From NCBI RefSeq assembly GCF_015207985.1, contig NZ_JADEVV010000009.1:1-64000 (forward strand): 64,000 nucleotides of DNA, in the 5' to 3' direction. How positions within the stretch are numbered: position 1 is the stretch's first letter; each line of letters starts with the position of its first letter. The notes beneath the pieces are model-generated. The model did no database searches, was not told the origin of the DNA, and saw nothing but the letters and a program-made list of their open reading frames with translations. The translations under genes were made by a program, and so were the position numbers. The stretch is from Synechocystis salina LEGE 00031 (lineage in GTDB: Bacteria; Cyanobacteriota; Cyanobacteriia; Cyanobacteriales; Microcystaceae). Shown here piece after piece: positions 4,139-53,736 of this stretch.

Positions 4139-5429
<1,291 letters not shown>

Positions 5430-41164: not shown

Positions 41165-42196
41165 TTATTCTGCCAACCGAAAATTGCCCTTACCAAGGCG
41201 CTTGACCTTCATCAACTGATTATCTGCCTGTTCCACCCAATGCTTGAGTTCGTCACTCTGCTTAGCAAACACACTGACTCCCCCCATACTCAAACTGATT
41301 GTCATTGGCCCTGCGGACGTGGGCACTGGGTTTTGGGCAATGGCGGCTTGAATTCTTTCTAGGAGTAGGGCGGTTTGTTCTCGGCTGGAACCAGGCAGGA
41401 TCAGCATAAATTCATCTCCTCCCCATCTTCCCAAAGCATCATAGGAACGCAGTGCAGAAATGATTAAACGTGAACTACCCTGTAGAACCTCATCGCCCAC
41501 TAGATGACCGTATTGATCATTGATCTGTTTGAAGTTGTCAAAATCAATCATGACAATGGCAATGGGGGAATCTTTGCGGGTGGCGTAGTCCCACTCCCGT
41601 TGTAGTAGGGTTTCGATACCCAAGCGATTCCATAGTCTGGTCAGGCTATCGAGCATGGCCACCCTTTCAAGTTCGTCCAATTCTTGAATTAACTGCATTT
41701 GAGCCTCGGACAGGGCGATCGCTGCTAGTTCGGACTCCACCATTTTGGAGAGGTCGTAGAGGATTTCCTGTTCTTCCGTTGACAAATCCCTGGGTACTCG
41801 ATCAATGGCACAGAGGGTACCCACATGGAAGTCTTGACCCAAGTTGAGGGGATAACCAGCATAAAACCGGATGAAAGGCTCATCGGTTACCAAGGGATTG
41901 TCAGCAAAACGTTCATCCTGGGTGGCATCTTTGACCAAGAGCAATTCATCCTTCAGAATGGCGTGGGCGCAAAAGGCAATTTCCCGGGGAGTTTCGGCAG
42001 CGCTTAGTCCTTGAATGGATTTAAACCACTGGCGTGATTCATCAACCATCGATACAGCGGCGATGGGTACTTTGAGGGACCGGCAGACCATACGGGTAAT
42101 GCGCTCAAATCTCTCTTCGATTGGAGTATCCAGAATGTTGAGTTGCCTTAAAACGGTCAGGCGTTGCTCCTCATTTTGCGGTAATTTAGCTTCCAT
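41165..42196 (-). CDS. GAF-GGDEF diguanylate cyclase
   Basis: 343 residues. GAF sensor domain (about 25-165: ITRMVCRSLKVPIAAVSMVD, REIAFCAHAILKDEL, FYAGYPLNL, VGTLCAIDR), a linking helix, then a GGDEF domain with MLDSLTRLWNRLG, IVMIDFDNFKQINDQYGHLVGD and an intact active site RWGGDEFMLILPG. It should make cyclic di-GMP. An RxxD product-inhibition site upstream of GGDEF is not evident. By memory slr1143 of PCC 6803 is the same. It is the downstream partner of a GAF-only paralogue, 45 bp apart. Confidence 0.92.
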   Translation of the reverse strand: MEAKLPQNEEQRLTVLRQLNILDTPIEERFERITRMVCRSLKVPIAAVSMVDESRQWFKSIQGLSAAETPREIAFCAHAILKDELLLVKDATQDERFADNPLVTDEPFIRFYAGYPLNLGQDFHVGTLCAIDRVPRDLSTEEQEILYDLSKMVESELAAIALSEAQMQLIQELDELERVAMLDSLTRLWNRLGIETLLQREWDYATRKDSPIAIVMIDFDNFKQINDQYGHLVGDEVLQGSSRLIISALRSYDALGRWGGDEFMLILPGSSREQTALLLERIQAAIAQNPVPTSAGPMTISLSMGGVSVFAKQSDELKHWVEQADNQLMKVKRLGKGNFRLAE

Positions 42197-42241: not shown

Positions 42242-42751
42242 CTAAACCGTAAAGAAGCTCTTAAGCATGTAGGCCTTTAGCTCATTGGCTACGGTAACTG
42301 ACAGGTCTTCTAAAAACTGAATATCGTCGTCGGACATTTCCCTGGGCTTGGTGTCATAGACACAGAGGGTGCCCACATGAATGTTATCCAGCATTTTCAG
42401 GGGATGACCAGCATAAAATCGGATGTGGGGCGGATCTATCACCAGGGGGTTATCGGCAAAACGGGGATCGGATAGGGCATCGGGGATAATTAGGGTGCGA
42501 TCCTCCAAAATTGTGTGGGCACAAAAGGAAATACCGCGGGGAGTTTCGGTTAGGTCCGAGCCTCGAATGGATTTAAACCATTGGCGATTTTCGTCAACTA
42601 AAGAAATGGCGGCCACTGGCATATCCAATACCCGACACAATAGCCGAGTAATGCGCTCAAACTTCTCATCGCTTGGCGTATCAAGAATGTTGAGATTCTG
42701 TAGATGGGCTAAGCGCTGCTGTTCATTGGATGGGATGGCAGCTTCTTGCAT
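42242..42751 (-). CDS. Single-domain GAF protein
   Basis: 169 residues, a GAF domain nearly parallel to that of the adjacent GGDEF protein (ITRLLCRVLDMPVAAISLVD, RGISFCAHTILED, FYAGHPLKM, VGTLCVYDTKPREMS), then a short closing helix. The pair clearly arose by tandem duplication, with loss or gain of the GGDEF part. It may bind the same ligand or form a heterodimer with the cyclase; no chromophore-binding Cys of the phycobilin type is seen beyond the Cys of FCAH. Confidence 0.85.
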   Translation of the reverse strand: MQEAAIPSNEQQRLAHLQNLNILDTPSDEKFERITRLLCRVLDMPVAAISLVDENRQWFKSIRGSDLTETPRGISFCAHTILEDRTLIIPDALSDPRFADNPLVIDPPHIRFYAGHPLKMLDNIHVGTLCVYDTKPREMSDDDIQFLEDLSVTVANELKAYMLKSFFTV

Positions 42752-42990
42752 TGGCTAGGCAATTTTGATTGAGTTCGTGTTGCTGGGTAGTTAGGTTAAT
42801 TGGCAACCACACCGCTGGTGTTAGACTTCTGATTTTTCTCCCTATTCAGGTTATCGCAAAGTTATGACCAATCCCTGGCCATGGGGCAAAAGCTGATGCA
42901 AAACTTTACACTGCGGTTTGGCGATCGCCGGCAAAAAGTAGCACAGAACACAGTCAAGTTGAGCATCCCTAGCTAGGGTAGGGGATATTG

Positions 42991-43102
42991 TTTCTAGGGT
43001 TCCGATTCCCGGATGTGGGGAATGGCTGGTCCGAGAGAAACAGGCTAGGTTTTGTAAAGATTTTTGCCACTAGCTACACGGCGGGACAAAAGCCCGGGAG
43101 AC
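42991..43102 (+). promoter_or_regulatory. Guanidine-I (ykkC) riboswitch
   Basis: Conserved ykkC blocks occur in order: TTTCTAGGGTTCCG (42991-43004), TGGCTGGTCCGAGAGAAAC (about 43023-43041), CTACACGGCGGGACAAAAG (about 43074-43092) and CCCGGGAGAC (43093-43102). This class binds guanidinium and switches on guanidine-handling genes. It sits 71 nt before the guanidine hydrolase gene. Downstream there is an 8-bp hairpin (43104-43111 with 43124-43131), and CTCCTGGG at 43135-43142 can pair with CCCGGGAG of the aptamer, a possible switching helix. Confidence 0.93.
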
Positions 43103-43172
43103 TTTAATGACCAGCGCTTAGGTGTCATTAATAACTCCTGGGCAAATTTTGTTGTTTAGCTAGTAATTACCT

Positions 43173-44345
43173 ATGAGCGATGCCACCCCATTCCGTCCCC
43201 CTTCTGAAGCCGAAGAAGCCCTAGTGAAGGAAACTCGGTTACCCCTAACCGGTTGGCAACAAGAAGTGGATCAAGGGCTAACCTATGGCTTAGAAGCCGC
43301 TGCCAGCATTAAGGACCGCTCCATTCCCACCTTCTCCCGGGGGGAATTGCCCCACTATGCGGGCATCAACACTTTCATGAAAGCGCCCTATCTGGAAGAT
43401 GTCCGTAACGTCGGCAATTACGATGTGGCGATCGTCGGAGTTCCCCATGATTCCGGCACCACCTATCGACCAGGTACCCGTTTTGGTCCCCAGGGTATTC
43501 GTCGTATTTCCGCCCTTTATACCCCTTACAACTTTGAAATGGGGGTGGATTTGCGGGAGCAAATTAGCCTCTGTGACGTGGGGGATATTTTCACCATTCC
43601 CGCCAACAACGAAAAATCCTTTGACCAAATTTCCAAAGGTATTGCCCACATTTTCAGCTCTGGGGCCTTTCCGATTATTCTGGGCGGTGACCATTCCATT
43701 GGTTTTCCCACCGTGCGGGGCATCTGCCGCCACCTGGGGGATAAAAAAGTTGGCATCATCCATTTCGATCGCCATGTGGATACCCAGGAAACGGATTTAG
43801 ACGAGCGGATGCATACCTGTCCCTGGTTCCATGCCACCAACATGGCCAACGCCCCAGCCAAGAATTTAGTCCAATTGGGCATTGGCGGTTGGCAAGTACC
43901 CCGGCAGGGGGTCAAAGTTTGTCGAGAGCGGGCCACCAATATCTTGACCGTCACCGATATTACCGAAATGGGCTTAGATGCGGCGGCGGACTTCGCCATT
44001 GCCCGGGCCACCGATGGCACCGACTGCGTTTGGATTAGTTTTGACATTGACTGCATTGATGCAGGTTTTGTCCCCGGCACCGGCTGGCCAGAACCCGGCG
44101 GCTTACTGCCCCGGGAGGCTTTGTACTTATTGAAACGTATTATTCGCGAAACTAATGTTTGTGGTATGGAAGTGGTGGAAGTTTCCCCTCCCTACGACAT
44201 CAGCGATATGACTTCCTTGATGGCCACCAGGGTAATTTGCGACACCATGGCCCACCTCGTAGTCTCAGAACAACTACCCCGTAAGGAAAAGCCCTCCTAC
44301 ATCAATGCTGAAGCCAATATGGAAGTAGATGAGCCTTGGCAATAA
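43173..44345 (+). CDS. gdmH: Ni-dependent guanidine hydrolase (arginase/agmatinase family)
   Basis: 390 residues of the ureohydrolase fold with a long N-terminal extension (about 70 residues). Metal ligands: GGDHSIGFPT, IIHFDRHVDTQE, SFDIDCIDAGFVPG. The Asp-Arg-His-Val-Asp form and the extension match Sll1077 of PCC 6803, long annotated as agmatinase (speB) but shown to hydrolyse guanidine to urea and ammonia with nickel. The upstream guanidine riboswitch, following nickel chaperones and an importer all support that role over agmatinase. Urea can then be used by urease. The gene starts the operon. Confidence 0.93.
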   Translation: MSDATPFRPPSEAEEALVKETRLPLTGWQQEVDQGLTYGLEAAASIKDRSIPTFSRGELPHYAGINTFMKAPYLEDVRNVGNYDVAIVGVPHDSGTTYRPGTRFGPQGIRRISALYTPYNFEMGVDLREQISLCDVGDIFTIPANNEKSFDQISKGIAHIFSSGAFPIILGGDHSIGFPTVRGICRHLGDKKVGIIHFDRHVDTQETDLDERMHTCPWFHATNMANAPAKNLVQLGIGGWQVPRQGVKVCRERATNILTVTDITEMGLDAAADFAIARATDGTDCVWISFDIDCIDAGFVPGTGWPEPGGLLPREALYLLKRIIRETNVCGMEVVEVSPPYDISDMTSLMATRVICDTMAHLVVSEQLPRKEKPSYINAEANMEVDEPWQ

Positions 44346-44420
44346 TAACTGCAACTTAACTAATCATTGTCGAGTTTATGACTCCAAAATAATCGGCGAT
44401 CGCCTTTGGGAGAGGTAAAA

Positions 44421-44783
44421 ATGCATGAAACAGACATGACCAAAGCCCTGATTATGACTATTCAGGATTGGTTTGATCAACAAATTGAAAAGCCCCAAAT
44501 TACCAAGATCCACCTTCTTGTGGGTCAGTTCACCTGCGTGGAACCAGTGAGTTTACAATTTGCTTTTGAAGTGCAGACCAAGCAAACCTTTTTGGAGGGG
44601 GTGGAATTAGTAATTAAAGATGTGCCTTTGGTTGCTTATTGCCATCCCTGTCAAACGGAATATCGCCCCGAAATTGGTTTGCAATATTCTTGCCCAACCT
44701 GTCGATCGCCCATGGAGGATATTCGCTCTGGGCGAGAGCTAAAAATTGACCGGATTGAACATCATCAGTGCACTCCGGTTTAG
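44421..44783 (+). CDS. hypA: HypA-type nickel chaperone of guanidine hydrolase
   Basis: 120 residues from the ATG at 44421 with the nickel-binding Met-His-Glu start (MHETDMTKAL), a GAGAGG ribosome site upstream, and a zinc site of two CxxC pairs (YCHPCQ and SCPTCR). HypA delivers nickel to hydrogenase in general; this copy lies in the guanidine operon, where the PCC 6803 protein (called GhaA, by memory) activates the hydrolase. A TTG five codons upstream would hide the required N-terminal His, so is rejected. Confidence 0.92.
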   Translation: MHETDMTKALIMTIQDWFDQQIEKPQITKIHLLVGQFTCVEPVSLQFAFEVQTKQTFLEGVELVIKDVPLVAYCHPCQTEYRPEIGLQYSCPTCRSPMEDIRSGRELKIDRIEHHQCTPV

Positions 44784-44843
44784 TCCCTAACCCACCGAGA
44801 CCAAATTTTTTATTAACTTGTCCACCGTTACTGCCAAGAAACT

Positions 44844-45533
44844 ATGCACCAATCCATTGACACGGTGATCGGTCTGAATTTGCTCCATGCCAACCAGGCT
44901 GGGGCAGACCATAATAGAGCACATTTCGATGACTGGGGAATTACTTGTCTGAACCTAATGAGTAGCCCAGGAGCAGGCAAAACCGTCCTGTTAGAAAAAA
45001 CCCTGGCGGCCCTCCAAGGTGAGTTAAAAATGGCCGTAATTGAAGGGGATATGACCACCGAATTAGATGCCGATCGTCTGCGGCAATATGGTAGTCCTGT
45101 AATTGCCATTAACACCGGCCGTTCCTGTCATTTAGACTCCAAAATGGTGGCGGGGGGGATCCATCGTTTTAAAGAGGATTATAATCCCCAGGAATTTGAT
45201 TTAGTGCTGGTGGAAAATGTCGGAAATTTGGTATGCCCAGCGGAATTTGAAGTGGGGGAACATGCCAAAGTTGCTCTGTTGAGCATCACGGAGGGAGAGG
45301 ATAAACCCCTGAAATATCCCATCATGTTTCAGGAAGCAGATTGTTTGATAATTACCAAAATTGATCTAATGCCCCATTTAGACATTGATTTAGAAAAATT
45401 AGCTGCCAATGTCCGTTCCATGAATCCCCATGTGACCATCATTCCTGTGTCCGCTAAAACCGGAGAAGGTTTGGCTACTTGGCTTAGCTGGGTTAAACAG
45501 CAAATCAAAACCCCAGTCATAGCTAATGTTTAA
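44844..45533 (+). CDS. hypB: HypB-type GTPase, nickel insertion
   Basis: 229 residues. G-domain with [15 protein letters not shown] (P-loop at about 40-47), [26 protein letters not shown] (Cys metal site) and TKIDLMPHL. The His-rich nickel store of many HypB proteins is missing; only scattered His near the start. It pairs with the preceding HypA, 60 nt away, and by memory corresponds to GhaB of PCC 6803, supplying nickel to the guanidine hydrolase. Confidence 0.92.
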
Positions 45534-45618
45534 ATCCTATTTAAAAGGTCAAAATCAACACAGTAAAATCTTGCTTTTTAGCTTTAAATAATAGCAGTTA
45601 TTAGTGGAGAAACTTCTG

Positions 45619-46647
45619 ATGCCGAGACGTAGTTTAATTTCTTTAATCTTAATTTTTTGTAGTACGATATTGTTGACGGTTAGTTGTGCCCAAACCCCAG
45701 AGCAATCCCAGACCCCTAGCCCCGCAGTAGAAGGGCCCCCCATTGTTATTGGTTATAGTAACTGGGCCGGCTGGTGGCCCTGGGCGATCGCCGAAGAAGA
45801 AGGCCTATTTGCCAAAAACGGGGTCAACGTAGAAATGAAATGGTTTGACGGTTACCTGGAATCCATGCAGGCCCTGGCGGCGGGACAATTGGACGGCAAT
45901 AGCCAAACCCTGAACGACACCATTTCCTTTGCGGGGGAAGCAGTCAACGGAGAAGTAGCCGTACTGGTTAACGATAACTCCGCCGGCAACGACAAAATTA
46001 TTGTCACCGCAGACATTAACTCCGTCCAGGAACTCAAAGGCAAAACCGTGGCGATCGAAGAAGGGGTGGTGGATGATTTTCTGCTTAGTTTGGCTCTGGA
46101 AAGGGAAGGTATGACCAGGGACGACGTCGTGATCAAGCCCCTAGAAACTGGGGCCGCAGCGGCAGCCTTTGCAGCGGGACAGGTGGACGCAGTGGGGGCA
46201 TTTCCTCCCTTTTGGTTAACCGCTTTGAAACGAGAAGGCTCCAAGGAATTAGTCACTTCCGCTGAATTTCCCGGAGCCATTCCCGATCTTTTAGTGGTGA
46301 CGGAAAAATTAATTCAAGAAAAGCCAGAGCAGGTTCAAGCTTTAATCAACACTTGGTTTGATATTCGTAAATTCATGGAAGAAAATCCTGAAAAATCCGA
46401 TGAAATTATGGCTAAACGGGCAGGGGTGAGCCAAGAGGAACTGCAACTATTTAAAGATGGCACCCGCTTTTTAACTCTGGAGGAAAACTTAGAAGCTTTT
46501 AGTCCCGGAGATAGCATGGTCCACATGCCCTTTGCCGCCCAAAAAATGGCAGATTTTATGATTAAAGTCGGCTTTATTAAACAGTCTCCTGACTTAAATA
46601 AAATCCTTGACTCCCAGTTTGTTAAAACATTAGCTGGCCAAGCTTAG
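45619..46647 (+). CDS. ABC transporter substrate-binding lipoprotein (probable guanidine importer)
   Basis: 342 residues from the ATG at 45619 (GGAG nine nt upstream). Lipoprotein signal: MPRRSLISLILIFCSTILLT then VSC. The mature part is a periplasmic-binding fold of the NMT1/SsuA group: IVIGYSNWAGWWPWAIAEEEGLF, AGQLDGNSQTLNDTI, AAAFAAGQVDAVGAFPPF. Trp-rich IGYSNWAGWWPWA could make a pocket for a small cation. Annotated as nitrate/sulfonate/taurine-like, but the operon with a guanidine riboswitch points to guanidine. Confidence 0.88.
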   Translation: MPRRSLISLILIFCSTILLTVSCAQTPEQSQTPSPAVEGPPIVIGYSNWAGWWPWAIAEEEGLFAKNGVNVEMKWFDGYLESMQALAAGQLDGNSQTLNDTISFAGEAVNGEVAVLVNDNSAGNDKIIVTADINSVQELKGKTVAIEEGVVDDFLLSLALEREGMTRDDVVIKPLETGAAAAAFAAGQVDAVGAFPPFWLTALKREGSKELVTSAEFPGAIPDLLVVTEKLIQEKPEQVQALINTWFDIRKFMEENPEKSDEIMAKRAGVSQEELQLFKDGTRFLTLEENLEAFSPGDSMVHMPFAAQKMADFMIKVGFIKQSPDLNKILDSQFVKTLAGQA

Positions 46648-46749
46648 CCTTTGGTTTAAGTTGCCTCCTTTAATGAGTAATCGGGGGGATTTTGATTTTT
46701 CTTTGTGACAATTTGTTCACTCTGTTAACCAATCAACTTCCCTAATATT

Positions 46750-47592
46750 ATGACTATTGCCCAAGATAAATTACCAAATTATTCCCCTAAAAAATCTCTA
46801 CAACCCACAGTTTTTTGGCGCATTGGTGGAGAGATACCGGAATCGCTCAAATGGTCCTTAATGTCCTTATCGATCATTATTCCCTTGGTATTGTGGGCCT
46901 TGCTTTCATCCTTACCTACTGTGAGTGATGTTTTTCTCCCTTCCCCCCAGTCAGTAGTTCAAGCCTTAATAGAATTGTTTAATGATGGATTTTTAATCCA
47001 AGATTCCCTGACTAGCTTTGGTCGAGTGGTAGGGGGATTTTTTTTAGGGGGATTGGTGGCTATTCCCTTAGGGATTTTAATGGGCACATTTCCTAGCATA
47101 CGCAGCTTAACGGAGCCAATTATTGGCGTGGTGCGTTATATGCCAGCCCCAGCTTTTATCCCGCTGTTAATTATTTATCTCGGCATTGATGAAGCTTCAA
47201 AAATTGCCTTGATTTTCATTGGGACAATATTTTTTAATACCCTGATGATTATGGATGCGGTCAAGTTTATCCCCAAGGAGTTAATTGAAGTTACCTATAC
47301 CCTGGGGGGATTACGGAAACAAGTTTTATTTAAGGTTATTACCCCCTACATCATCCCTAATATTCTTGACGCATTCCGGATCAATATGGCGGCAGCTTGG
47401 AACTTGGTGGTGGTGGCGGAATTGGTGGCGGCGGACAATGGCTTAGGGAAACGTATTTTGCTAGCTCAGAAATTTTTGAAAACCGATGAAATTTTTGCTT
47501 GCCTAATAGTTCTGGGCTTAATTGGTTTTGCTTTGGATTTATCATTTCGCCTCATCCTCAGACTCACTTGTAAATGGTCTCTGGAACAGTAA
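46750..47592 (+). CDS. ABC transporter permease (SsuC/TauC type)
   Basis: 280 residues with about six membrane helices and the EAA loop ELIEVTYTLGGLRKQVLFKVITP. Start LSIIIPLVLWALL. It forms the homodimeric channel of the importer, with the binding protein upstream (102 nt) and the ATPase downstream (57 nt), all same strand. Confidence 0.9.
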   Translation: MTIAQDKLPNYSPKKSLQPTVFWRIGGEIPESLKWSLMSLSIIIPLVLWALLSSLPTVSDVFLPSPQSVVQALIELFNDGFLIQDSLTSFGRVVGGFFLGGLVAIPLGILMGTFPSIRSLTEPIIGVVRYMPAPAFIPLLIIYLGIDEASKIALIFIGTIFFNTLMIMDAVKFIPKELIEVTYTLGGLRKQVLFKVITPYIIPNILDAFRINMAAAWNLVVVAELVAADNGLGKRILLAQKFLKTDEIFACLIVLGLIGFALDLSFRLILRLTCKWSLEQ

Positions 47593-47649
47593 TTTGGCTT
47601 TTTTACGATCATTGCCCAATCATCAAATTAATTGTAACTAGTAAAAATT

Positions 47650-48450
47650 ATGCATCTAGAAATAACTGACTTAAATCGGATTTTTGTCGGCAAACGAGGT
47701 TCAGTGGTGGCCCTAAAAAATATCAATATGCACATCGAAACCGGGGAATTTGTTTGTGCAGTGGGGGCTTCTGGTTCCGGCAAATCGACTCTTTTGAGGT
47801 TGATTGCTGGCTTAGATACTCCCACTTCCGGCACCATCAACGTTGATGGACAAAAGGTAACGGGGCCAGGGGCGGACCGCGGCATGGTTTTTCAACATTA
47901 CAGTCTTTTTCCCTGGATGACGGTGCAGGAAAATGTCGAGTTTGGCTTGAAACTCCAAGGCTGTTCCCAAAAGGAAAGGTTTGACACCGCTAGCTATTAT
48001 TTAGACGTGGTGGGTTTAGTGAATTTTGCCCAGGCCTATCCAAGGGAATTGTCAGGGGGCATGAAGCAACGGGTGGCGATCGCCAGGTCTTTGGCCTGCC
48101 ATCCGAAGGTCTTGTTAATGGACGAACCCTTTGGGGCCCTAGATATTCAAACCAAGGAAAGGATGCATGAATATCTAATCGACATTTGGCAAAGACTGCA
48201 ATGTAGCATTCTGATGATTACCCACGACGTGGAAGAGGCCGTATTTTTAGCCCAACGGGTCTATGTGTTGAGCTCTCGTCCAGGTACCATTCAACGGGAA
48301 CTGACTATCAACCTACCGGGGGATGAAGAAACTCCGAAAAATCGCACCTATAAAATCAAGCGGGAACCAGAATTTTTTAAATACAGCGATGAAATTTCCA
48401 GTTTATTAAGGGGCAGTCACACTGAGGAGGCAGAGGCGATCGCCCAATAA
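47650..48450 (+). CDS. ABC transporter ATPase (SsuB/TauB type)
   Basis: 266 residues with Walker A GASGSGKST (39-47), Q-loop FQHYSLFPWMTVQENV, signature LSGGMKQRVAIARSLA, Walker B LLMDEPFGALD and switch MITHDVEEAVFLA. It powers the preceding permease. Last gene of the guanidine operon (six genes, 43173-48450); ends 21 bp from the convergent DegT gene. Confidence 0.92.
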   Translation: MHLEITDLNRIFVGKRGSVVALKNINMHIETGEFVCAVGASGSGKSTLLRLIAGLDTPTSGTINVDGQKVTGPGADRGMVFQHYSLFPWMTVQENVEFGLKLQGCSQKERFDTASYYLDVVGLVNFAQAYPRELSGGMKQRVAIARSLACHPKVLLMDEPFGALDIQTKERMHEYLIDIWQRLQCSILMITHDVEEAVFLAQRVYVLSSRPGTIQRELTINLPGDEETPKNRTYKIKREPEFFKYSDEISSLLRGSHTEEAEAIAQ

Positions 48451-50262: not shown

Positions 50263-50877
50263 TCAAAGCAAGTAAACCAAGATAAACAGAACAATCCAAA
50301 CCACATCGACGAAATGCCAGTACAATTCCGCCGCTTCTACCCCAAAATGGGATTTGCTGGAATAATGGCCCGGTTGGCGCGATCGCCAGAGTACAGAAAG
50401 AATTAGTAACAATCCAAAGGTAACGTGGAGGCCATGGAAGCCTGTGAGAACATAAAAACAACTGGCAAACAAATTTGTGGTTAGCCCCATTTCCAGATGG
50501 AAATATTCATACATCTGGCCTGCTAAAAAGATAATGCCCATAATGGCCGTGAGGCCAAACCACTTTTGCAACCCAGCATTGTCATTATTGCGAATGGCCG
50601 CTTGACCTTTGTGCATGACAAAACTACTGGAAATCAAAATAATGCTATTGACCCCAGGCAAGAGTAATTCCAACTCCGGCGTACCTTCAGGGGGCCAGGC
50701 GGGCATCACACTGCGGTAAATCAAATAGGCGGTGAACAGGCCCAGAAAAATGGCACTTTCTGCCACGAGGAAGAGGACAACCCCAAACATCCGTAGATCG
50801 GGGTGGCCGTGGTGGGTATGGGCTTCCCCTGAGGTATAGGCGCTGTTTAAATCGGAGCTAATAGCAGTGGTTTGCAT
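50263..50877 (-). CDS. ctaE: Cytochrome c oxidase subunit III
   Basis: 204 residues from the ATG at 50877 (MQTTAISSDLN); the 30 preceding in-frame residues contain other starts but no usable site. Five membrane helices, including RMFGVVLFLVAESAIFLGLF, HGLHVTFGLLLI and YWHFVDVVWIVLFILVYLL with the conserved WHFVDVVW of subunit III. It stabilises the catalytic subunit of the aa3-type oxidase of the thylakoid respiratory chain. Last of ctaC-ctaD-ctaE. Confidence 0.95.
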   Translation of the reverse strand: MQTTAISSDLNSAYTSGEAHTHHGHPDLRMFGVVLFLVAESAIFLGLFTAYLIYRSVMPAWPPEGTPELELLLPGVNSIILISSSFVMHKGQAAIRNNDNAGLQKWFGLTAIMGIIFLAGQMYEYFHLEMGLTTNLFASCFYVLTGFHGLHVTFGLLLILSVLWRSRQPGHYSSKSHFGVEAAELYWHFVDVVWIVLFILVYLL

Positions 50878-50994
50878 AGGACTGACAATTATCGTTGCTG
50901 AATTTCTAGGATTTTGCCGAAAACTTCTGGCTGACGAGCCCATGGGGGAAATTATTGAACTAAACATCCCCCTAGGTACAGCAGTTGCAGGAAG

Positions 50995-52650
50995 CTAACT
51001 GCCTGCCGCATCGGCAATTAGGGTTTGGACTGTTTCTTCCTCGTCCACTAACTCCGTGTCAATACCAAAATCGTAGGGACCACACCAGAGCACCGGTTCT
51101 TCTTCAAAGTTTTCGATGATGGGAGGAGAAGCCGTTTGCCATTCTAGAGTTAGGGCTCGCCAAGGATTACGGGCCGCTTTTTCCCCTTTAAACAAACTCC
51201 AAAAGACATTAATCACAAAGGGAATGGTGGAAGCAGCTAAAACGTAGGCTCCGATGGTGCTCAACACGTTTAGCGGCTGAAATTCAACATCGTAGAGGGC
51301 AATGCGGCGGTTCATGCCCATTAGACCCAGTTCATGCATGGGCATAAAGGTCAAATTCATGCCAATAAAAGTGAGAATGAAGTGGAGACGCCCCAGGGGT
51401 TCATTGACCATGCGGCCAGTCATTTTAGGGAACCAGTGATAAACCCCAGAAAACAGGGCAAAGGCACTGCCACCAAAGAGCACGTAATGGAAGTGGCCCA
51501 CCACAAAATAGGTGTCGTGGACATGAATATCGAAGGGAACAGATGCCACCATTACCCCGGTTAGCCCGCCAATCATGAAGCTAGACAGAAAGCCAAAGGC
51601 AAACAGCATGGCGGAATTGAGTTGGATTTTTCCTCCCCAGAGGGTGCCGCACCAACTAAAAATTTTGATTCCCGTGGGCACAGCAATCAACATGGTGGTG
51701 GCCATGAAGAACATCCGCAACCAACCGGGGGTGCCACTGGTAAACATGTGGTGGGCCCAAACAATCAAGCCCAAAAAGCTGATGGCCAAACTCGAATAGG
51801 CGATTGCCCGGTAGCCAAAGATGGGTTTGCGGGCATGGACAGGGATGACCTCAGAAATGACGCCAAAAAAGGGCAAAATCATGATGTAGACTGCCGGATG
51901 GGAGTAAAACCAGAATAAGTGCTGGTAAACCACCGGGTCTCCTCCCCCCACTGGGTTAAAGAAACTAGTGCCGGCAATGAGGTCAAAGGAAAGCAGAATC
52001 AACGCCGATGCCAACACCGGGGTGGAAAGCAAAATTAGGGAAGAAGTGGCCAGCATTGCCCAGCAAAACAGGGGCATACTGTGCAAATCCATGTCCTTAA
52101 TGCGCATTTTTAAAATGGTGGTGACAAAATTAATTGCCCCCAAGATGGAGGAGGTCCCTACCAAAAGCAGACTCAAAATCCAGAGTTCCTCTCCCCATTT
52201 GCCACTGAGCAAACTTAAAGGGGGATAGGAAGTCCAACCGGCCTGGGGTGCCCCGACAAAAAAGCTGGAGATGAGTAAAATGCCCCCCGGCGGAGTGAGC
52301 CAAAAAGCGACGGCATTTAAGCGAGGAAACGCCATATCCTCTGTGCCCACCATTAGGGGAATGAGATAGTTGGCAAAGGCAGCCCCGGCCGGCACAATCC
52401 AGAGAAAGATCATGATCGTGCCGTGGAGGGTCATCAGTTGGTTATACATTTCCGGCTGGACAAAGTCCGGGGAGGGAGTGGCTAATTCCGTCCGCATGGC
52501 TTCCGCAAAAGAACCACCGATGAAAAAGAAAAGAAAGGATGTAACCAGGTATTGAATGCCAATCACCTTATGGTCAACGCAAAAGGTAAAATAATCCGTC
52601 CATTTGCGGCGGGGATGATTAGCCGTTAGATTCTCAGCGGCAGTAGTCAT
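50995..52650 (-). CDS. ctaD: Cytochrome c oxidase subunit I
   Basis: 551 residues, 12 helices. Heme and CuB ligands: TLHGTIMIFLWIVPAG (His of heme a), WFYSHPAVYIMILPFFG (CuB His and the His-Tyr crosslink region), VHDTYFVVGHFHYVLFG (CuB and heme ligands). It reduces O2 to water, pumps protons and takes electrons from CtaC, fed by plastocyanin or cytochrome c6. A slightly acidic C-terminal extension (EEEPVLWCGPYDFGIDTELV) is typical of cyanobacteria. Confidence 0.97.
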   Translation of the reverse strand: MTTAAENLTANHPRRKWTDYFTFCVDHKVIGIQYLVTSFLFFFIGGSFAEAMRTELATPSPDFVQPEMYNQLMTLHGTIMIFLWIVPAGAAFANYLIPLMVGTEDMAFPRLNAVAFWLTPPGGILLISSFFVGAPQAGWTSYPPLSLLSGKWGEELWILSLLLVGTSSILGAINFVTTILKMRIKDMDLHSMPLFCWAMLATSSLILLSTPVLASALILLSFDLIAGTSFFNPVGGGDPVVYQHLFWFYSHPAVYIMILPFFGVISEVIPVHARKPIFGYRAIAYSSLAISFLGLIVWAHHMFTSGTPGWLRMFFMATTMLIAVPTGIKIFSWCGTLWGGKIQLNSAMLFAFGFLSSFMIGGLTGVMVASVPFDIHVHDTYFVVGHFHYVLFGGSAFALFSGVYHWFPKMTGRMVNEPLGRLHFILTFIGMNLTFMPMHELGLMGMNRRIALYDVEFQPLNVLSTIGAYVLAASTIPFVINVFWSLFKGEKAARNPWRALTLEWQTASPPIIENFEEEPVLWCGPYDFGIDTELVDEEETVQTLIADAAGS

Positions 52651-52737
52651 AAAAAGTTTTCTACTAGATTTGTCAAAATTTACAGAGTATTAGGGCAAAA
52701 CTGACCAGTCATACCAAAGGTTAGTACTCCAGCCAAA

Positions 52738-53736
52738 TCAAAGCAGATCTTTGACCGGAGAGACTTGATCCTTCAACTGGGCCAATCCCTTGGTTTCCAC
52801 TCCCATTTCCTTCACATAGGGGGCCAAGTATTCTTCGGGAGTCATGGCGGTGGTTGCTTTAGGCAATGTCATTGCCATCGATTCCGTCGGAGCCGGAGCA
52901 TTGGCCGCTACCCAGTCGTCATACTCTTCGGGGGTATGGGCGTAGAAAACCGATTTCATGCCTCCATGGTAAGCACCACACAACTCGGCACAGATCACCG
53001 GATACCGTCCAGGGGTACTGGCATTAAACACCAAAGTACTGCCCCGCCCGGGAATCACATCCTGTTTTAATCGCAATTGGGGAACCCAAAAGGCATGGAT
53101 CACATCCCCCGCTTCCATATTCAATTGCACCGGGCGATCGATGGGGGCGTGCAGTTCCCCGGAAATAATTCCAGTCTCGGGATAGGTGAAAATCCAGGCA
53201 TACTGAATGCCCTTAACGTCCACCATCAGGGGTTTGACTCCTTGTTCTTCGCTATCCAAACCAATACCCAGGGCCACATCTCCGTCCCCAGACATAGCCA
53301 CCATATTACCCATACTCCCCATATGTCCCATGTGGTTATGGGCCATCTGCTGACCGGCATTATCCCTAGAAATGGTTGGATCCAATCCGCCCAGGTTGTT
53401 GTACACCTCAAAGCTATACACTGCCAAGGTAAAAACAATTACCGTAGGAATGGCAGTCCAGAGAATTTCCAGGGGCACATTACCTTCAATTGGAGGGCCA
53501 TCGGTTTGGTCGCCCTTGCGACGGCGAAAGCGGATCAGGCAGTAAACCAAGACCCCTTCCACCAAAAGGAATAATCCCGTGGCAATGGTCATCATGTAAT
53601 TAAAAATGCCATCCACTTCTTCCGCATCGGCGGAGGCGGCAACGGGCATCAGACCATGATTCTGTCCGTACCATAAGCTAACAACTGTGACCACAACACC
53701 GATGAGAAGGGTTATGACACTACCGGGAATTTTCAC
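52738..53736 (-). CDS. ctaC: Cytochrome c oxidase subunit II (CuA)
   Basis: 332 residues beginning at GTG. Two N-terminal helices, then the cupredoxin domain with the CuA site VICAELCGAYHGGMKS (two Cys, His, Met) and FWVPQLRLKQDVIPGR. An insert near residues 130-151 is rich in His and Met (AHNHMGHMGSMGNM), a likely copper-holding segment. It accepts electrons from plastocyanin/cytochrome c and passes them to CtaD. First gene of the operon. Confidence 0.95.
   Translation of the reverse strand: MKIPGSVITLLIGVVVTVVSLWYGQNHGLMPVAASADAEEVDGIFNYMMTIATGLFLLVEGVLVYCLIRFRRRKGDQTDGPPIEGNVPLEILWTAIPTVIVFTLAVYSFEVYNNLGGLDPTISRDNAGQQMAHNHMGHMGSMGNMVAMSGDGDVALGIGLDSEEQGVKPLMVDVKGIQYAWIFTYPETGIISGELHAPIDRPVQLNMEAGDVIHAFWVPQLRLKQDVIPGRGSTLVFNASTPGRYPVICAELCGAYHGGMKSVFYAHTPEEYDDWVAANAPAPTESMAMTLPKATTAMTPEEYLAPYVKEMGVETKGLAQLKDQVSPVKDLL

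Follow-up and report, generated by a model that had tools for sequence, protein, structure and literature searches.

Six plus-strand genes follow one guanidine-I aptamer in the 64,000-nucleotide (nt) stretch of Synechocystis salina LEGE 00031 analysed here (contig NZ_JADEVV010000009.1, positions 1 to 64,000; below, the window), encoding in order a ureohydrolase, HypA, HypB, an SsuA-type lipoprotein, a permease and an ATPase (Table 1). The gaps between them measure 75, 60, 85, 102 and 57 nt. The neighbours are on the minus strand: genes for GAF and GAF-GGDEF proteins precede the six, and a DegT-type aminotransferase gene follows them. The original prediction, drawn from the letters alone, had placed a riboswitch, a guanidine hydrolase, HypA/HypB-type nickel chaperones and an SsuABC-type importer in this order on one strand, and Rfam, Pfam and NCBIfam matches bear out the presence of all of them. 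Its riboswitch at the 5′ end is upheld by a match to RF00442, with the correction that there is a single aptamer, starting at 42983, 8 nt upstream of the position 42991 originally given. For HypA, family starts make ATG 44421 more likely than TTG 44406, the start listed mechanically, and together with the signal peptide they favour ATG 45619 over GTG 45604 for the lipoprotein. A consensus terminator scan, operating at chance level (11 sites against 9.7 expected), placed no plus-strand site in the gaps between the six genes, its plus-strand terminator-like sites all lying inside genes or at the 5′ edge of the aptamer. No exact NtcA box (GTA-N8-TAC) occurs in positions 42601-42990, and a single-mismatch site at 42938 is not claimed as one.

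Table 1. Positions of the features discussed, in the window or, where an L number is given, in other gdmH loci.
Feature	Position	Strand	Basis
Guanidine-I (ykkC) riboswitch aptamer	42983..43102	+	Rfam RF00442, 88.4 bits
Proposed expression platform, hairpin GCCCGGGAG...CUCCUGGGC	43092..43143, T-rich to about 43157	+	fold -27.9 kcal/mol
gdmH, predicted Ni-dependent guanidine hydrolase, 390 aa, sll1077 counterpart	43173..44345	+	PDB 7esr/7oi1, PF00491
hypA-type nickel metallochaperone, GhaA counterpart	44421..44783	+	TIGR00100, PF01155
hypB-type GTPase nickel chaperone, GhaB counterpart	44844..45533	+	TIGR00073
Substrate-binding lipoprotein of predicted guanidine ABC importer, sll1080 counterpart	45619..46647	+	TIGR01728
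ABC importer permease, sll1081 counterpart	46750..47592	+	PF00528
ABC importer ATPase, sll1082 counterpart	47650..48450	+	PF00005
Sodium/solute symporter, query source	L023:8612-10138	+	
Sodium/solute symporter	L060:3230-4663	-	
Methyltransferase-like gene	L008:8256-9017, L011:8337-9080, L014:6257-7003, L017:2796-3578, L023:5901-6656, L039:1766-1936 (short match only), L080:8370-9002		
Glutamine synthetase-like gene	L002:8617-9960, L003:8976-10295, L006:8611-9954, L013:6062-7405, L028:3107-4450, L031:10349-11692, L064:8671-9540		

All 390 residues of the hydrolase align with PDB entries 7esr/7oi1 (891 bits, E = 8.4e-268), with 9 differences counted by eye in the alignment. Entry 7OI1 is the Synechocystis guanidinase GdmH (PMC11410670; this and the other papers are cited here from excerpts), and T97 and W305, named in the same source as the residues setting guanidine specificity, are both present. 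The protein matches Pfam PF00491 at 264.4 bits and contains the metal motifs FDRHVDT and SFDID, the former, at residue 198, being the FDRHVD-type site that had been foreseen. The near-identity to GdmH and the two retained residues agree with the earlier assignment as a guanidine hydrolase and not an agmatinase.

The adjoining HypA scores 138.2 bits against TIGR00100 (cut-off 88.1) and matches PF01155, while a phmmer search returned no PDB chain for it at E ≤ 0.001; HypB scores 315 bits against TIGR00073 (cut-off 121.2). A His-rich N-terminus is a trait of many, not all, hydrogenase-type HypB proteins. The HypB of the operon lacks such a terminus, and a second HypB elsewhere in the genome has it. 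The lack fits a putative dedicated chaperone of the GhaB type, GhaA and GhaB being the names that PMC12930504 gives to the nickel accessory proteins.

The ATP-binding cassette (ABC) importer is encoded by genes for a binding protein, a permease and an ATPase, side by side in that order. The binding protein passes the SsuA_fam model TIGR01728 (334.6 bits, cut-off 163.5), as expected from the earlier remark that such importers are annotated as nitrate/taurine type. It also matches TIGR03427, which we take to be a model belonging to guanidine carboxylase operons, at 136.2 bits, below the cut-off of 333.9. Its Cys23 is invariant in 37 aligned sequences, consistent with a lipoprotein; the alignment comprises the window's protein and 36 of 39 usable relatives, those of loci L027, L018 and L040 being omitted as similar to kept ones. 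The AlphaFold model (predicted local distance difference test score 89.8) has TauA and SsuA as its best Foldseek matches, and the TauA/SsuA fold is thus confirmed at the level of the model, while conserved acidic and aromatic residues are only suggestive. The permease (PF00528) resembles TauC, SaoP and SsuC, under the cut-offs of those models (TauC 147.3/342, SsuC 113.8/347), and the ATPase (PF00005) resembles SaoA, TauB and NrtCD, again under the cut-offs among the best 25 of 189 matches (TauB 252.8/357, SsuB-type PRK11247 183.1/395). Since both fall below the curated models, the system appears to work like a sulfonate or taurine importer and is not to be filed as one.

Control of the operon is suggested by its leader. 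The aptamer match covers the full RF00442 model (1-107 of 107) and, at 88.4 bits (E = 1.7e-14), exceeds the gathering score of 63; it is the sole match over that score in the window and the sole RF00442 match in the genome. For the RNA of 43090-43160, folding gives a single hairpin at -27.9 kcal/mol (z -4.5). Its 5′ arm, GCCCGGGAG, also serves the aptamer as the 3′ arm of helix P3. Because this arm is reused, aptamer and hairpin would be mutually exclusive, and the hairpin is likely an off-state transcription terminator competing with the aptamer. We infer this terminator in agreement with the class behaviour described in PMC11410670, according to which the guanidine-I class permits transcription only with guanidine. 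Measured against shuffles of the downstream sequence, a complement of the P3 arm is significant (p ≤ 0.05) in 65 of 69 leaders, which are mutually related and hence not 69 independent tests. L105 and L107, in which the start-codon pattern was unmatched, stand outside this set; both have the aptamer and both are in the leader alignment.

Riboswitch and hydrolase travel together in relatives. Within the genus, the hydrolase is found in four of five genomes (this one included) and the riboswitch in the same four, the remaining genome having neither, and gene order is identical in the three same-genus loci compared. Across the taxonomic family the riboswitch occurs in 23 of 50 genomes, the hydrolase in 24 and both in 23 (Fisher p 2e-13, relatedness ignored); G020, the sole genome with the hydrolase alone, is 79% complete. 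A broader set was formed by the best 80 of 376 candidate gdmH loci encoding a relative, taken from genome contigs, with genes called at an identity of at least 45% on the plus strand and many loci cut by contig ends. Of these 80, 34 have the full set of six in the order seen in the window, 33 the hydrolase with hypA and hypB only, and 13 other sets or orders. The aptamer core was recognised by pattern in 67, an undercount: an Rfam rescan of 5 of the 13 missed loci recovered an aptamer in L061 and none over the gathering score in L009, L014, L022 and L054.

The locus is almost certainly a close relative's version of the operon by which Synechocystis PCC 6803 is known to assimilate guanidine, and would provide a nitrogen source. 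When guanidine is lacking, the leader hairpin would take the 3′ arm of P3 and stop transcription early; guanidinium in the cell would, following the description of the class, steady the aptamer, block the hairpin and let the six genes be transcribed. As gene context and the published reading suggest, lipoprotein, permease and ATPase would then bring in more guanidinium at the expense of ATP. The HypA/HypB-type proteins would put nickel into the hydrolase, which would cleave guanidine to urea and ammonium, a reaction in print for the 6803 enzyme, and the urease encoded elsewhere in the genome (alpha gene, 997.7 bits) would cleave the resulting urea. Several observations weigh against parts of this explanation. 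Among solved structures, the binding protein stands closest to TauA and SsuA, whose ligands, to judge by the record titles, are sulfonates or phosphonates and not a cation. Of the 69 leaders, only 48 have both a P3-arm complement and 6 or more T among the 12 bases behind it, and in four (L029, L030, L034 and L066) the complement is not significant. In the window itself, a weak T-run (7 of 12 bases) stands behind the proposed terminator, the hairpin is not listed by the consensus terminator scan, and the outer long-range helix of the predicted leader fold is, by alignment, not kept in relatives. That helix was dropped for this reason, which leaves the exact off-state fold uncertain.

A quite different reading would make the hydrolase a SpeB-type agmatinase of arginine breakdown and the importer one for nitrate, taurine or sulfonates. 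The profile models lend it some colour, as the binding protein passes SsuA_fam and the hydrolase just passes the agmatinase model TIGR01230, at 175.8 bits against 174.3. This margin of 1.5 bits explains the common misnaming that had been anticipated, and which extends to the PDB record of GdmH, named 'Probable agmatinase 2'; the pass itself is overruled by the full-length GdmH match. The closely similar 6803 enzyme degrades guanidine rather than agmatine, and agmatinase activity in 6803 is mostly credited to Sll0228 (both PMC8390497). In the present genome a second, distant ureohydrolase (26% identity) could serve agmatine. The agmatinase and taurine/nitrate readings were rejected on the GdmH match, T97/W305 and the guanidine riboswitch upstream, and together they appear highly improbable.

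Another possibility concerns only the mode of control: the alternative hairpin could mask the start region instead of terminating the transcript. The predicted long leader fold does extend near the start codon, and the weak T-run and the silence of the terminator scan point the same way. Yet same-genus relatives keep the inner hairpin and not the outer helix, the part that lies near the start codon, and the P3-arm complement recurs in the leaders although the estimated start codon lies anywhere from 52 to 439 nt past the aptamer. With the class described as permitting transcription only with guanidine (PMC11410670), translational control seems unlikely, and transcription termination is the preferred account of the leader.

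Uptake may be served differently in other cyanobacteria. Among the 80 gdmH loci, ten carry a gene for an SSS-family sodium/solute symporter, which in nine of them follows hypB at 63-449 nt in the same orientation. In 41 loci some part of the ABC importer is found, never together with the symporter (hypergeometric p 4e-4, relatedness ignored). The other 29 loci have neither transporter, and in 8 of these under 3 kb of sequence remains. In the tenth locus, L060, the symporter gene is on the opposite strand, preceded by a guanidine-I riboswitch of its own (4816-4932, minus strand, 81.2 bits). Where the symporter follows hypB, RF00442 scores over gathering in seven of the nine loci and in neither L014 nor L054, with which the rescan agrees.

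Of 291 class-level genomes sampled separately, 28 contain the symporter; the matches in G109 and G279 have one in-frame TAG each, and that in G217 is partial. The sample overlaps the 80 loci: the genome of L023, which supplied the query, is among the 291, and at least one further locus recurs, G207 having the same coordinates as L049. A guanidine-I match is present in 25 of the 28 (23 above cut-off) against 157 of 291 overall (one-sided Fisher p 4e-5), and the hydrolase in 27. In 12 genomes the symporter follows a riboswitch of its own, over cut-off in all 12, at a distance of 86-331 nt; in five it stands inside a hydrolase operon behind the riboswitch, that of G279 being below cut-off. In one genome it lies near the hydrolase with no riboswitch detected, and in ten it is placed elsewhere, so that these ten lend no support to a role in guanidinium import. 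By sequence, its nearest solved structures are choline transporters, the first being 'High affinity choline transporter 1', presumably human CHT1.

From gene context, the symporter is a candidate sodium-coupled guanidinium importer. It is tempting to propose, with slightly better than even confidence, that the cyanobacterial guanidine regulon uses exchangeable uptake modules, an ABC importer here and elsewhere a riboswitch-switched SSS symporter that would import guanidinium with sodium. The comparison suggests that cyanobacteria differ in the transporter family that serves the uptake step. One of these transporters is a sodium symporter, and the solved proteins nearest to it in sequence carry choline, likewise a cation. 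No report of the symporter as a guanidine importer was found in the literature searched, which did not extend to Itzenhauser et al. 2025 and Funck et al. 2022. This lead is newer than the operon of the window, and the main interest rests there.

Other genes accompany gdmH in some of the 80 loci. Seven, mostly Xenococcaceae or Hyella records, have a class I methyltransferase-like gene between gdmH and hypA, which lies below all NCBIfam cut-offs among the matches listed. In seven loci a type III glutamine synthetase-like gene directly follows hypA, ahead of hypB in six, the contig of L064 ending before any hypB could follow. These seven are 75-79% identical to a representative from L038, which lies farther along its locus and scores over the TIGR03105 cut-off (582.9/469.6). 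A 107-residue protein encoded after hypA in L007 (5669-5989) has relatives in six loci (L007, L015, L046, L051, L055 and L074) and a weak match to antitoxin TumA, under its cut-off. In the window, the minus-strand GAF-GGDEF (41165-42196) and GAF-only (42242-42751) genes encode tandem proteins with 58% identity over 161 residues, an apparent duplication with the GGDEF domain missing from one copy; both genes are kept in L105 and L106, with no match in L107. The minus-strand genes at 50263-53736, for cytochrome c oxidase subunits III, I and II, are ordinary.

The operon of the window is already known in all but strain. Its value lies in a correct re-annotation, in which a guanidine hydrolase and its importer replace an agmatinase and a taurine/nitrate importer, the system having been worked out in 6803. 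The earlier reading of riboswitch, hydrolase, chaperones and importer coincides with the published account of the near-identical sll1077-sll1082 (PMC8390497, PMC12186494, PMC12930504, PMC10094980). Sll1077 is a guanidinase that, once purified, releases urea and ammonium; a 6803 knockout given guanidine in nitrate-deprived medium grows little and then lyses, and the operon proteins rise in guanidine-producing strains (PMC8390497). GdmH, nickel accessory proteins and ABC importer are described as one operon (PMC12186494, PMC12930504), and ammonium represses sll1077-1082 (PMC10094980).

Set beside this closest counterpart, with the same six genes under a guanidine-I riboswitch, the window shows differences of sequence at strain level. 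The marine picocyanobacterial cluster Pro-eCAG_004 / Syn-eCAG_001 (PMC10119275) shares the ykkC riboswitch, speB2/gdmH, hypA, hypB and a TauABC-like transporter; in the Synechococcus/Cyanobium clusters a Rieske protein gene mostly lies downstream, whereas in the window the DegT-type aminotransferase gene comes next, on the other strand. Comammox Nitrospira inopinata (PMC11410670; PDB 9fek) likewise has a guanidine-I riboswitch and a homologous guanidinase (574.5 bits against the window's), but, in the account excerpted, an APC permease in place of the ABC importer and no nickel chaperones beside the guanidinase. Guanidine carboxylase operons of Raoultella and Klebsiella (PMC12186494) share a guanidine riboswitch and an ABC importer with the window, and differ in taking an ATP-dependent carboxylase route where the window's operon would hydrolyse guanidine directly.

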